Part shown: piece after piece, positions 983-12,423 of the stretch
How positions within the stretch are numbered: the stretch's first letter is position 1
How the letters are laid out: the number at the start of each line of letters is the position of its first letter
Virus record (IMG/VR): IMGVR_UViG_3300017437_000077
Coordinates: 1-21,033 of that record
DNA: 21,033 nucleotides
Direction: 5' to 3' (one strand)
Source: a virus
Made by a program: the position numbers and the translations under genes
Notes under the pieces: generated by a model
What the model was told of the DNA's origin: nothing
Seen by the model: the letters and a program-made list of their open reading frames with translations, nothing else
Database searches by the model: none

Positions 983-2950
983 TCAAAATATGACATCATT
1001 CCATGTATCTTCAGCTTCTTTTTCTGATTCTTCGAGCTTCCGATACATATAAAATTTTGCATTACCTTTCCCCACTCCTGCTAAATACGCGCCCAGTTTC
1101 GTGCGTGTTGAAACATGGATGAATGATCTATCTTCGAGATCGCGAAGAGCAAGACGGATATTTTTCTCGGAAATCTTTGTCGCGGTTACAAGGTCGGAAA
1201 CGGAAAACCATTTTTCTTCCTGACTTTCAAGTAATTTTAGAATTTTATCTCGCGCGACTTGGAATGAATAAAGGATTGATTGATGCTCGCTTCCAAATTC
1301 AAAACGAACTCCATCGGTGTCAAAGATGCGTATTTCAATCGGTTCTCTTTTTTTTGTCGCCTTGCTTTTCAAGTGCTTTACAATAAGGAAGGTTCCCTCT
1401 TCTCGTTTTTCTTCCTCAAGAGATATATGACCGGAGACTGCTGCATTGATCGCTGTTGATCCGCGTGTTGCTTCAGCATCATCCAATTTTTCGTCTTTAA
1501 GCGGCTTCTTCTTGTGATGGTGCGTAAAAACAACTGTTACGCCTGCGCGGACAAAAATTTTTAGATGATCCATCACTTCCTGCATTTCGGTACTGTCATT
1601 CTCTCTTGCATTATGAATGGAACGAAGAGAATCGAATATCACAAGTGAGATGCCTTGTTTTTGACATTCCGTTAAAATTTCTTGTACACTTTTTTCATTC
1701 AATTTGTATCCTTTCATTATGTAGAAATACACATCAGAGACGTTTTGTTTCGCCCCCAGAAGAAATAATCGAGATTGTATTTCAGATTCAGTGTCTTCTT
1801 CATTCACAAGGAGAACTTTCTGTTTATCTGTTTTGAACATCCCGAGCCACTCCTTTCCATCAGCTATGGAAAGCGCAACATCAAGCGTAAAAAAGGTCTT
1901 CCAGTTATTCGGCGGAGCCGAAATCATATTTATCGCATTCGTTTCAAAGAACGGTTGCAGAGCGAAGCGGACAGGCGGAAATTCTTTACGGACGAAATCG
2001 GCAAGATGGATAAATGGCTCTGGGACTGTCTTGTCTTGTTGTTTCTGTTGTTCCTGTGGTTTTCTCCATGTATAAAATTCTTTTGCTCCTTTGAATGCGG
2101 CTGCGATGGTTCTATCTCGATAATCTTTCCGTTTGTGTGTTTTCTCGCGGCGGCCGAGTGGTGAATGTACCCACAGACGTTCGACGGTCGTGTGATTTCC
2201 TCCGCTCCAAAATACACAGTGCGAGACAAACGCCATATCTGCGGCAGAATCGTCATTATTATATTTGGTGATGTCGCCATGATAGAGGGTTTTAATTTCC
2301 GCACCATTTTTTGAGGTAAACATCTTTTCCAGTACCTCGAAATCGGATGGAGTATATTCATTGTTTCCCGTCTCTTCTTTTGCGTCTTGAAATGGGTCTG
2401 TTTTATCTTTGCCCCATGGGTAACCAAGTATTGTAAGAATGTCTATCGCTTCTTTTGGTTCTATCGTACGGACGGGCTTCGGATCACCAAATGATTGTTC
2501 AGTAACGGTAAAGTATCTTCGCTCGGTATAGCACTCGACAGCTGTGCCATCTTCACTCTCTTTTTTGTGCGCTATGAGCGGACAAGGAGCAGAAAGAGCG
2601 AGAATAATATGCAGCCCTTCCCCACTCGGCGACCTTTCGGTATACGAGTTGGCTTTCTCGAATAACAGTTGCAATGTTTGTTTTTTCGATTCTTTATTGA
2701 GCCAATGATCCAGGTCTATGCCGAGCAGGGTACCATCTAACCCAAATTGAATGCCGATTTTGTCAGAATGTTGTTTTACTTCGGTATATGTGGCCCATGT
2801 TTCGGGATCATCAGCTTTTGCGTGTTCGCCGGAGATTTGGTAAGGAACTTTCGTCATTTTTCCATCGCGCGTTTCAAAACGCCAGTTTACCCATCGTTTT
2901 TCTGCCCCGAAAGTATCACGCAATACTGAGTTGTTCGCGATTTTGTCCAT
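983..2950 (-). CDS. Primase-polymerase (AEP) fused to RecA-like helicase
   Basis: 655 aa, the core phage replication enzyme. Residues 1-175 form an archaeo-eukaryotic primase fold: catalytic D79-x-D81 in GIDLDHW, the SPSGEGLH motif (107-114), and R144/R145-YFTVT. Residues about 230-290 (YNNDDSAADMAFV...RKDYRDRTIAAAF) match the helical domain found behind the primase in NrS-1-type phage polymerases. Residues 310-550 are a RepA/AAA_25-type RecA helicase: a divergent Walker A (SAPPNNWKT, 344-352), VNEED (382-386), Walker B (LVIFDS, 436-441), THHHK (476-480) and RGST (496-499). The last 90 residues look like a winged helix (SVSDLVTATKISEKNIRLALRDLE). It would prime and unwind DNA at the phage origin, which probably lies just upstream (3099-3340). 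It is the first gene of the leftward operon; no Shine-Dalgarno sequence is seen, and its ATG touches the base of a long hairpin (2949-3046). Confidence 0.88.
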   Translation of the reverse strand: MDKIANNSVLRDTFGAEKRWVNWRFETRDGKMTKVPYQISGEHAKADDPETWATYTEVKQHSDKIGIQFGLDGTLLGIDLDHWLNKESKKQTLQLLFEKANSYTERSPSGEGLHIILALSAPCPLIAHKKESEDGTAVECYTERRYFTVTEQSFGDPKPVRTIEPKEAIDILTILGYPWGKDKTDPFQDAKEETGNNEYTPSDFEVLEKMFTSKNGAEIKTLYHGDITKYNNDDSAADMAFVSHCVFWSGGNHTTVERLWVHSPLGRREKTHKRKDYRDRTIAAAFKGAKEFYTWRKPQEQQKQQDKTVPEPFIHLADFVRKEFPPVRFALQPFFETNAINMISAPPNNWKTFFTLDVALSIADGKEWLGMFKTDKQKVLLVNEEDTESEIQSRLFLLGAKQNVSDVYFYIMKGYKLNEKSVQEILTECQKQGISLVIFDSLRSIHNARENDSTEMQEVMDHLKIFVRAGVTVVFTHHHKKKPLKDEKLDDAEATRGSTAINAAVSGHISLEEEKREEGTFLIVKHLKSKATKKREPIEIRIFDTDGVRFEFGSEHQSILYSFQVARDKILKLLESQEEKWFSVSDLVTATKISEKNIRLALRDLEDRSFIHVSTRTKLGAYLAGVGKGNAKFYMYRKLEESEKEAEDTWNDVIF

Positions 2951-3046
2951 AGTTTTTGTAGACTAAAAGGACGTCCCGACCTGAACCGGCACGCGAATGC
3001 CGTGGCTTGCGCCAGTCGGAACGTCCTCTAAAACTACAAAAATAAT
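2949..3046 (-). ncRNA. Branched three-way-junction RNA-like leader element of primase-helicase mRNA
   Basis: Two 32-nt arms (2949-2980 and 3015-3046) are inverted copies with seven mismatches, one of them a G.U wobble. Read on the minus strand they form a 13-bp stem, a symmetric 6x6 internal loop (UUUUAG/UUUAGU) and a 9-bp stem. The 34-nt apical part folds into two further hairpins: UGGC-GCAA-GCCA, closed by a GNRA tetraloop (3003-3014), and CGGCA-UUCGCG-UGCCG (2987-3002), with GUUCAG (2981-2986) as the only unpaired junction strand. The GNRA loop exists only in the leftward transcript, which argues for a folded RNA rather than only a DNA cruciform. It fills nearly the whole predicted 5' leader (transcription start near 3064) and ends at the primase-helicase ATG. 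Cis-regulation of replication-gene translation is the simplest reading; a DNA role in origin function is an alternative. I do not recognise a known RNA class. Confidence 0.6.
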
Positions 3047-3070
3047 CGACGCGATTTCGTTCATTGGTAC

Positions 3071-3097
3071 ATAATACCATGAGTGGTTTTTTGTCAC
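3071..3097 (-). promoter_or_regulatory. Leftward promoter for replication operon
   Basis: On the minus strand a -10 hexamer TATTAT (3071-3076) is preceded by TGG, giving an extended -10 (TGGTATTAT). A -35-like GTGACA lies at 3092-3097. The spacer is short (15 nt), which the extended -10 could compensate. Transcription would start near 3064 and run through the branched leader element into the primase-helicase gene. The DnaA box at 3099-3107 sits directly behind the -35, so an origin-binding protein could influence this promoter. Confidence 0.45.
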
Positions 3098-3098
3098 C

Positions 3099-3107
3099 TG
3101 TGGATAA
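3099..3107 (-). promoter_or_regulatory. DnaA box (TTATCCACA)
   Basis: The minus strand reads TTATCCACA, an exact match to the high-affinity bacterial DnaA box consensus TTATNCACA. It lies between the leftward promoter and the iteron cluster. One perfect 9-mer can occur by chance in a genome, but its position next to iterons and the primase-helicase gene makes host DnaA binding at a phage origin credible. Confidence 0.5.
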
Positions 3108-3152
3108 ACTTTTTTGTCTTAATATAAAACAAAAAGAGAGAGTTGTCTAATT

Positions 3153-3338
3153 TTCTGCTTGGTAAATGCCATTTACCAAGCAGAACTGCTTGGTTCTGCT
3201 TGGTAAATGGGCTTACCAAGCAGAACACGGCTCTGTTGAGCCATTATAGTTTTGCTTGGTTTTGCTTGGTAAAATACCTTTCTGCTTGGTAAATTGCCTG
3301 TATATATATATATATATACAGGCAAGATACCAAGCAGA
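3153..3338. repeat. Iteron cluster, consensus TTCTGCTTGGTAAAT
   Basis: The TGCTTGG core occurs nine times. Full 15-nt forward copies are at 3153-3167, 3194-3208 and 3280-3294. Reverse copies are at 3171-3185 (perfect), 3212-3225 (CTTACC end) and 3327-3338 (ATACC end). Shorter forward copies are at 3186-3193, 3251-3260 and 3261-3274. Copies 3153-3167 and 3171-3185 form a perfect 15-bp inverted repeat with a 3-nt spacer; 3194-3225 forms a second, imperfect one. 3251-3260 and 3261-3270 are tandem 10-nt direct repeats. Spacing is irregular and the orientation mixed, which fits binding sites of a dimeric or multimeric DNA-binding protein. Confidence 0.85.
3294..3325. repeat. 32-nt perfect palindrome with (TA)9 core
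   Basis: TTGCCTG (3294-3300) and CAGGCAA (3319-3325) flank exactly nine TA dinucleotides (3301-3318). The symmetry extends outward through the flanking iterons (3280-3294 forward, 3327-3338 reverse) with only small mismatches, giving arms of about 20 nt on each side of the TA core. Such a block is prone to cruciform extrusion and local melting. It is a candidate DNA-unwinding element. Confidence 0.8.
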
Positions 3339-3401
3339 GGATATTTATGAAAAGTGAAAAGTCATTTTTCTGTGTTTGGTTAATTTATCCCCGTTTATGG
3401 T

Positions 3402-11544: not shown

Positions 11545-12423
11545 ATGGCTGTTTCGAATACGATTACTTATCGTACAGAATTTGAGACAATTCTCCAAGA
11601 TAGGTTAGATCGTCCGACAACGTTCAAGGAGATGTGCCGAATTACCATTACGAATGAGCGGGCAATCTCTACGTCGTACATGTCCACTACCCCGGCGGTG
11701 GAGACGGTTACTCGTGGTACCGGACACATTATGAAGACATTTGCGGAGACGGCGGAAACTCTTACGATTTCCACCGGCCGTGATCTGGGTCTGTTCGTAG
11801 ACTTCGCGGACGAAGCGCAGTCCCCGTGGACTACGGGTGTTGAACTCTTCGATCGCATCGGTGCGCTTCTTAATGAATTCATTGAGAACAATGTGCTTGC
11901 ACAGCACGCAAGCTGGACCGATTTCGATAATGCGTCTATTGGTGGAGCTGCAGGTAACATTACGGTTTCTGTCACCAATATTGATGACATAATTCGAGGA
12001 GTGAAACGTGAAATCCGTGAGGCGAATGGGCAAATGTTCATGAGCAAGAACGGAGTTGGATTTGTGTGGCGTGCGGCTGATTTTGAGTTGCTCGAGGCTT
12101 TCGTCCAAGCAAATGGCTTTATGACCGCTGACGCGGCTCTTAAAGAGGGAACTGTTGAAGGTTTCCGGTATCTTGCCGCTGACCATTACTGGTCAAACGA
12201 CCATACGACCGCTGCTGGCACTACGCATGTTTTTGCGGCTGTGAAGAAAATTCAACGATTGGGGATACTCAAGAAAACATACGGACGCGCCCATACCATC
12301 GAATTTCCGGCCGGTGATACGAATACATACCTTTCTGGTACTTCGTATTATTCTCGTGTGGATATTGGTCATCTGACTCCGACGGGGCATGTTGGGATTG
12401 TTTTTGATGTGAATGTTGCTTGA
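11545..12423 (+). CDS. Major capsid protein, HK97-fold
   Basis: 292 aa. Pattern fits HK97-type capsid proteins: extended N-arm (TYRTEFETILQDRLDRPTTF), a long helix-containing region (GVELFDRIGALLNEFIENNV), a peripheral domain with DDIIRGVKREIREANGQMFM, and a strand-rich C-terminal axial domain (TYLSGTSYYSRVDIGHLTPT). It directly follows the scaffold gene. It has more C/G-ending codons than its neighbours, as expected for a highly expressed gene. It has a good Shine-Dalgarno (AAAGGA, 11528-11533) that is buried in a hairpin. It forms the icosahedral shell. The exact subfamily is not clear, and no protease gene is evident nearby. Confidence 0.85.
   Translation: MAVSNTITYRTEFETILQDRLDRPTTFKEMCRITITNERAISTSYMSTTPAVETVTRGTGHIMKTFAETAETLTISTGRDLGLFVDFADEAQSPWTTGVELFDRIGALLNEFIENNVLAQHASWTDFDNASIGGAAGNITVSVTNIDDIIRGVKREIREANGQMFMSKNGVGFVWRAADFELLEAFVQANGFMTADAALKEGTVEGFRYLAADHYWSNDHTTAAGTTHVFAAVKKIQRLGILKKTYGRAHTIEFPAGDTNTYLSGTSYYSRVDIGHLTPTGHVGIVFDVNVA

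Follow-up and report, generated by a model that had tools for sequence, protein, structure and literature searches.

A leader hairpin ahead of a phage primase gene: a proposed translation-coupled attenuator

Introduction

What is the function of a large, branched inverted repeat that fills the space between a promoter and the gene for a replication enzyme? The question is raised by the IMG/VR virus record IMGVR_UViG_3300017437_000077, a fragment whose 21,033 nt constitute the stretch analysed here (the window). On its minus strand, a hairpin at 2952-3043 is flanked by a predicted promoter and by the gene for a PrimPol-helicase. To our knowledge, gene control has hardly been studied in the phages of this primase family or in Patescibacteria, a group that holds full-length relatives of the window primase. 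The element had been interpreted from the letters of the sequence alone as a folded cis-regulatory RNA, built around a three-way junction and a GNRA tetraloop. We have followed up this interpretation by folding both strands, by comparing the leaders of related primase genes and by weighing the locus against known leader systems.

Results

Fold of the leader hairpin

The inverted arms (2945-2980 and 3015-3050) are 36 nt long and 78% complementary. As RNA, the minus strand folds with a minimum free energy (MFE) of -53.6 kcal/mol, compared with -26.3 +/- 3.4 for shuffled sequences (z -7.9; 0 of 200 shuffles as stable), while the plus-strand RNA is weaker (-41.8, z -5.8); the DNA strand of the hairpin also folds (z -6.8). 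The computed structure reproduces the inverted arms, the two adjacent hairpins, the GCAA loop and the single unpaired strand of 6 nt that the sequence-only reading had drawn (Table 1). An internal loop is likewise present in the long stem, albeit as 4x4 in the MFE structure and not as the 6x6 loop proposed before, and the inner stem comprises 12-13 bp. With only 1-2 nt between them, the outer stem stops just short of the primase start codon (ATG at 2950). The element is present in a single copy in the record. No described class had been recognised in it, in agreement with our Rfam search, which gave no match at gathering scores and only chance-level matches below them.

Table 1. Features of the primase leader in the window
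Feature	Position	Strand	Basis
Predicted alternative promoter, TAGACA-17-TATATT, further upstream, higher-scoring	3121..3149	-	consensus scan, 10/12 matches
Predicted extended -10 of the leader promoter, TGG-TATTAT	3071..3079	-	sequence
Leader ORF, 33 codons (MNEIASIIFVVLEDVPTGASHGIRVPVQVGTSF), predicted leaderless, spans the entire hairpin	2963..3064	-	translation
Outer stem, 5' arm AUUUUUGUAG	3034..3043	-	RNA fold
GC-rich terminator-like stem GGACGUUCCGAC / GUCGGGACGUCC, encloses two small hairpins	2969..3026	-	RNA fold
Inner hairpin 1, UGGC-GCAA-GCCA, GNRA loop	3003..3014	-	RNA fold
Inner hairpin 2, CGGCAUUCGCGUGCCG	2987..3002	-	RNA fold
Junction strand GUUCAG, 6 nt, the only unpaired one	2981..2986	-	RNA fold
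U-tract UUUU, right behind the GC-rich stem	2965..2968	-	sequence
Outer stem, 3' arm CUACAAAAAC	2952..2961	-	RNA fold
Putatively regulated gene, 655 aa: archaeo-eukaryotic primase-polymerase (AEP), NrS-1-type helix-bundle domain (HBD), AAA_25 helicase domain	983..2950	-	Pfam, PHROG

Terminator-like features and leader ORF

Two features had been overlooked: the U-tract behind the stem and the ORF that spans the hairpin. When scored as a terminator, the window hairpin reaches 19.8, the highest value in the 21 kb on either strand. Its U-tract is short (four U, then AG), and its interior of 34 nt is branched and lacks the short loop of an intrinsic terminator, for which such an interior is atypical. 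U-rich sequence also precedes the stem. The upstream genes diverge, running rightward, so there is no leftward gene in need of a terminator at this place.

The leader ORF stops with a TAG 12 nt ahead of the primase ATG. The spacing between the -10 element and the leader-ORF ATG is 6 nt (TATTAT-gtacca-ATG) and, at so short a distance, the RNA is predicted to start at the ATG itself, as a leaderless mRNA; this prediction and that of the alternative promoter are consensus matches and no proof of function. A Shine-Dalgarno-like sequence is missing ahead of nearly all genes in the window, and a start-site check found none at the primase start. The primase domains were assigned with Pfam (PF22763 and PF13481) and with the PHROG primases. 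The leader peptide of 33 aa contains no run of regulatory codons of the kind found in attenuators of the trp/his type.

Recurrence in related primase leaders

Neither blastn nor nhmmer found a homologue of the element, an exact DNA pattern derived from it gave zero matches, and a single-protein scan with the window primase as query returned no viral relatives. Because the nucleotide searches had detected no homologue, relatives were sought through the primase protein, and searches with it and with its alignments yielded 135 distinct leaders. Beside the window, nine leaders are structured (L086, L103, L105, L106, L107, L110, L205, L209 and L225, the last being a fragment), with primases whose identity to that of the window, over the N-terminal domain where measured, ranges from ~40% (L205) to 46% (L209). 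In all nine, as in the window, the hairpin separates the promoter side from the start of the primase gene, and across the ten leaders, which were selected for their hairpins, it ends 1-26 nt ahead of the primase ATG.

A UUUU directly 3' of the GC-rich stem is common to 10/10 leaders, and in a MAFFT alignment of nine of them this tetranucleotide and one A are the only invariant columns. The terminator score is above zero for 8/10 sense hairpins (it is slightly below zero in L205 and L225) versus 2/10 antisense ones, and in every leader the sense score exceeds the antisense score; the control, random windows, gave a positive score in 3/120. In a structure-blind test, which took the 100 nt before the primase in 32 close relatives, 7 scored above zero. 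The stems share no sequence between leaders, and yet 77 of the 80 cells nearest the U-tract are paired. As they are too divergent for MAFFT, an arm-swap control took the place of a covariance model: when 3' arms were exchanged among the leaders (20000 trials), the mean was 38 and the maximum 68, and 77 was never reached. Since the leaders had been chosen for folding, this control shows that the stems have been rebuilt and not inherited unchanged, and is no independent proof of structure.

An ATG-started ORF of 30-60 codons spans the hairpin in all ten leaders, and its stop falls between -12 and +8 nt from the primase ATG; an equivalent ORF arises in shuffled leaders at a frequency of 0.018-0.139 each. 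A -10 hexamer stands exactly 6 nt ahead of the leader-ORF ATG in six of the ten, the window included, against a background of 1-7% of ATGs; L106 has TATAAT at 5 nt, and L103 lacks a -10 at the expected distance. The leader peptides are not conserved in sequence across the ten leaders. L110 and L225 have in common an apical hairpin, UUGGUUCURCCGARCCAGU, which their ORFs read in different frames; it is therefore the RNA that is conserved here, and the notion of a conserved leader peptide was dropped.

The junction and the tetraloop, put forward earlier as the hallmarks of the element, are not conserved across these leaders. A three-way junction is found in the window, L103 and L209, possibly also in L106 and L086, and is missing from the others, several of which are plain hairpins, while the GNRA loop is GCAA in the window and GAAA in L106 and is absent from L103 and from L110 and L225. 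In L103, L105 and L106, the loop of the second inner hairpin is AGTCATGC or AGTAATGC, with an AUG inside. Loss of the helices from homologous loci, or changes in them without compensation, had been named as grounds for rejecting the earlier reading, and on this point the outcome is mixed: the stems are compensated where the hairpin is present, but many homologues have no leader hairpin (for example L087, L100 and L178). On a tree of the primase domain, the hairpin trait is clustered, requiring ~5 changes as opposed to a mean of 8.8 after shuffling (1/500 shuffles as low); it falls inside one large primase group, yet does not form a single clade.

Replication origin and host

The only exact DnaA box of the window (3099-3107) lies upstream of the leader. 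It is accompanied by TTCTGCTTGGTAA iterons, of which there are seven copies on both strands at 3153-3339 (0.6 expected), and by a palindrome with 29-bp arms and a TATATATA core at 3281-3338. The iteron recurs, together with an extended palindrome whose stem core differs, ahead of full-length primase relatives on the Patescibacteria contigs L179, L180 and L182, and also on L181 (bacterium). The interval 3099-3339 is thus a likely replication origin, distinct from the leader hairpin, and these relatives suggest a Patescibacteria host for the window phage. The recognition sequence of the NrS-1 polymerase, TTTGGTTA, has an exact match in an intergenic position at 3375-3382; with 2 occurrences against 0.97 expected, it does not exceed chance and was discarded as a candidate NrS-1 site.

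Discussion

Ribosomes are able to repress terminators that lie within an ORF or just past it (PMC4824070; PMC10135430). The U-tract, together with the ORF that spans the hairpin, points to transcription attenuation coupled to translation and away from a ligand-binding RNA. We consider it reasonably probable that the leader is a transcription attenuator of the replication operon, which is relieved by translation of the leader ORF and passes ribosomes into the primase gene by termination-reinitiation. RNA polymerase would start at or near the ATG of the leader ORF. If no ribosome followed closely, the nascent RNA would adopt its branched, GC-rich fold, and at the adjoining UUUU transcription could stop, ~15-20 nt ahead of the primase gene, with release of a structured RNA of ~100 nt. 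A ribosome that kept close to the polymerase while translating the leader ORF would block the hairpin, so that transcription could read through, and on finishing at the leader stop codon it might re-initiate at the adjacent primase ATG, which has no Shine-Dalgarno sequence of its own. Ribosomes on the leader ORF would thus probably decide whether the replication enzyme is made. The anatomy behind this proposal can be read directly from the letters: a hairpin with its U-tract, an ORF whose stop overlaps the primase start, the spacing of the -10 and the recurrence of these parts in relatives. Termination, translation of the leader ORF, relief of the former by the latter and a signal that sets the balance are what such an anatomy suggests.

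Could translation alone account for the leader? The hairpin would then hide or crowd the primase start until translation of the leader ORF opened it, and transcription would not terminate. The tap-repA genes of plasmid R1 and repY-repZ of the IncI plasmids are models for control of this kind through a leader ORF. The stop/start overlap in 10/10 leaders, the primase start devoid of a Shine-Dalgarno sequence and the closeness of the hairpin to the ATG would all fit, but the stem for the most part does not include the start codon, and translational control leaves unexplained both the UUUU that follows the stem in every leader and the preference of the terminator scores for the sense strand; we regard it as rather unlikely. 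The view taken in the sequence-only reading was that of a folded regulatory RNA centred on the junction and the GNRA loop, with a ligand or the primase protein itself as its binding partner. That an RNA acts in cis within the leader of this operon is supported by the recurrence in nine relatives, the rebuilt stems and the favoured sense strand, whereas the U-tract and the ORF lead away from a ligand-binding leader. The branched fold with its GCAA loop speaks for such an RNA, as do a junction strand common to L103 and L209 (CAGCAG) and the window (GUUCAG) and a loop, AGUMAUGC, common to L103, L105 and L106. However, Rfam offers no match, and with junction and loop not kept throughout and several leaders reduced to plain hairpins, we find a binding RNA improbable.

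The inverted repeat might also act as DNA, in the form of a cruciform or single-strand hairpin serving as a replication origin or as a loading site for the primase, whose family has known recognition sites (PMC8718748). The leader adjoins the DnaA box and the seven iterons, and its DNA strand folds too. Yet a cruciform should be strand-symmetric, and the bias towards the sense strand argues against it: in 9/10 leaders the sense RNA has the more stable fold, with 33-38 G-U pairs in sense versus ~7 in antisense. Moreover, it is another palindrome (3281-3338) that the origin has in common with the Patescibacteria loci L179-L182, and L062 has a DnaA box and iterons without a leader hairpin. After folding of both strands the origin-hairpin reading was dropped, and a DNA element appears very improbable.

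Among known systems, the proposed attenuator would work like E. coli pyrL-pyrBI, where a short leader ORF runs through an intrinsic terminator just ahead of the regulated gene and termination is prevented when a ribosome closely follows the polymerase (PMC10135430; PMC5021804). An ORF that spans the terminator-like hairpin and ends near the gene, an arrangement of the pyrBI type, was found in all ten leaders. The two differ in that pyrBI senses UTP via polymerase pausing, while in the window the leader ORF is predicted to be leaderless, the hairpin is branched and the regulated gene is a phage primase. In the immunity of satellite phage P4 (CI RNA, seqA/seqC, alpha primase operon), a phage replication operon is similarly held off by premature transcription termination in the leader (PMC4825925). 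P4 acts through a trans-acting antisense CI RNA, and no antisense partner of at least 12 nt to the leader was found elsewhere in the window, the longest complement in this fragmentary record being 11 nt. The isrK-orf45-anrP locus of the Gifsy-1 prophage, which produces a short terminated RNA and a longer read-through mRNA, shares a small leader ORF with a stop codon that overlaps the following start (AUGA), coupled translation, and an RNA sequence that is kept while the peptide varies (PMC4825925). Points of difference are that IsrK works in trans on alternative structures and that it controls an antiterminator gene.

In Firmicutes phages with related primases, among them phi105 and phage Wrath (L297 1113-1138; L298 1092-1122), an intrinsic-terminator-like hairpin with a U-tract lies directly ahead of the AEP primase gene, between it and the SSB gene. 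There the primase has a normal Shine-Dalgarno sequence and the leader ORF is absent. As these phages have a plain terminator, the guarding of primase genes by terminators may extend beyond the clade of the window. For the window, attenuation, if confirmed, would provide a concrete and testable switch for the replication genes of the phages of this primase family, a case of ribosome-coupled attenuation joined to a leaderless leader ORF, and another terminator guarding a phage primase gene, a theme also open to study in a cultured phage, phi105. A bolder joint reading, which we hold to be unlikely, combines gating of the commitment to replication by leaderless translation with action of the terminated RNA in trans, in phages of this replicon family, whose hosts are probably Patescibacteria. 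As the leader mRNA would begin at its own AUG, the attenuator could sense the readiness of the host for leaderless messages, and the terminated RNA of ~100 nt might act on the leaders of other copies, in the manner of a P4-like immunity or a copy-number RNA.

Other structured elements were seen at related loci. In L091 (111-161) and L094 (5690-5751), the primase operon is preceded by hairpins with the potential for H-type pseudoknots (AATTGAG/CTCAATT and AATCGGT/ACCGATT); they lie ahead of its first gene, and their stem sequences differ between the two loci. L179 carries at 3267-3340, upstream of its iterons and primase, a terminator-like hairpin (ACAAAAATCACCCGCTT/AAGTGGGTGATTTTTGT) and an upstream segment, TTCTTGCGGAA, that can pair with the loop side of the hairpin, TTCCGCAAGAA, the two pairings being mutually exclusive; the region looks like an antiterminator-terminator attenuator. 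The same contig, from Staskawiczbacteria, contains a LOOT RNA (RF03000, 76.5 bits) at 12267-12386, near an integrated element.
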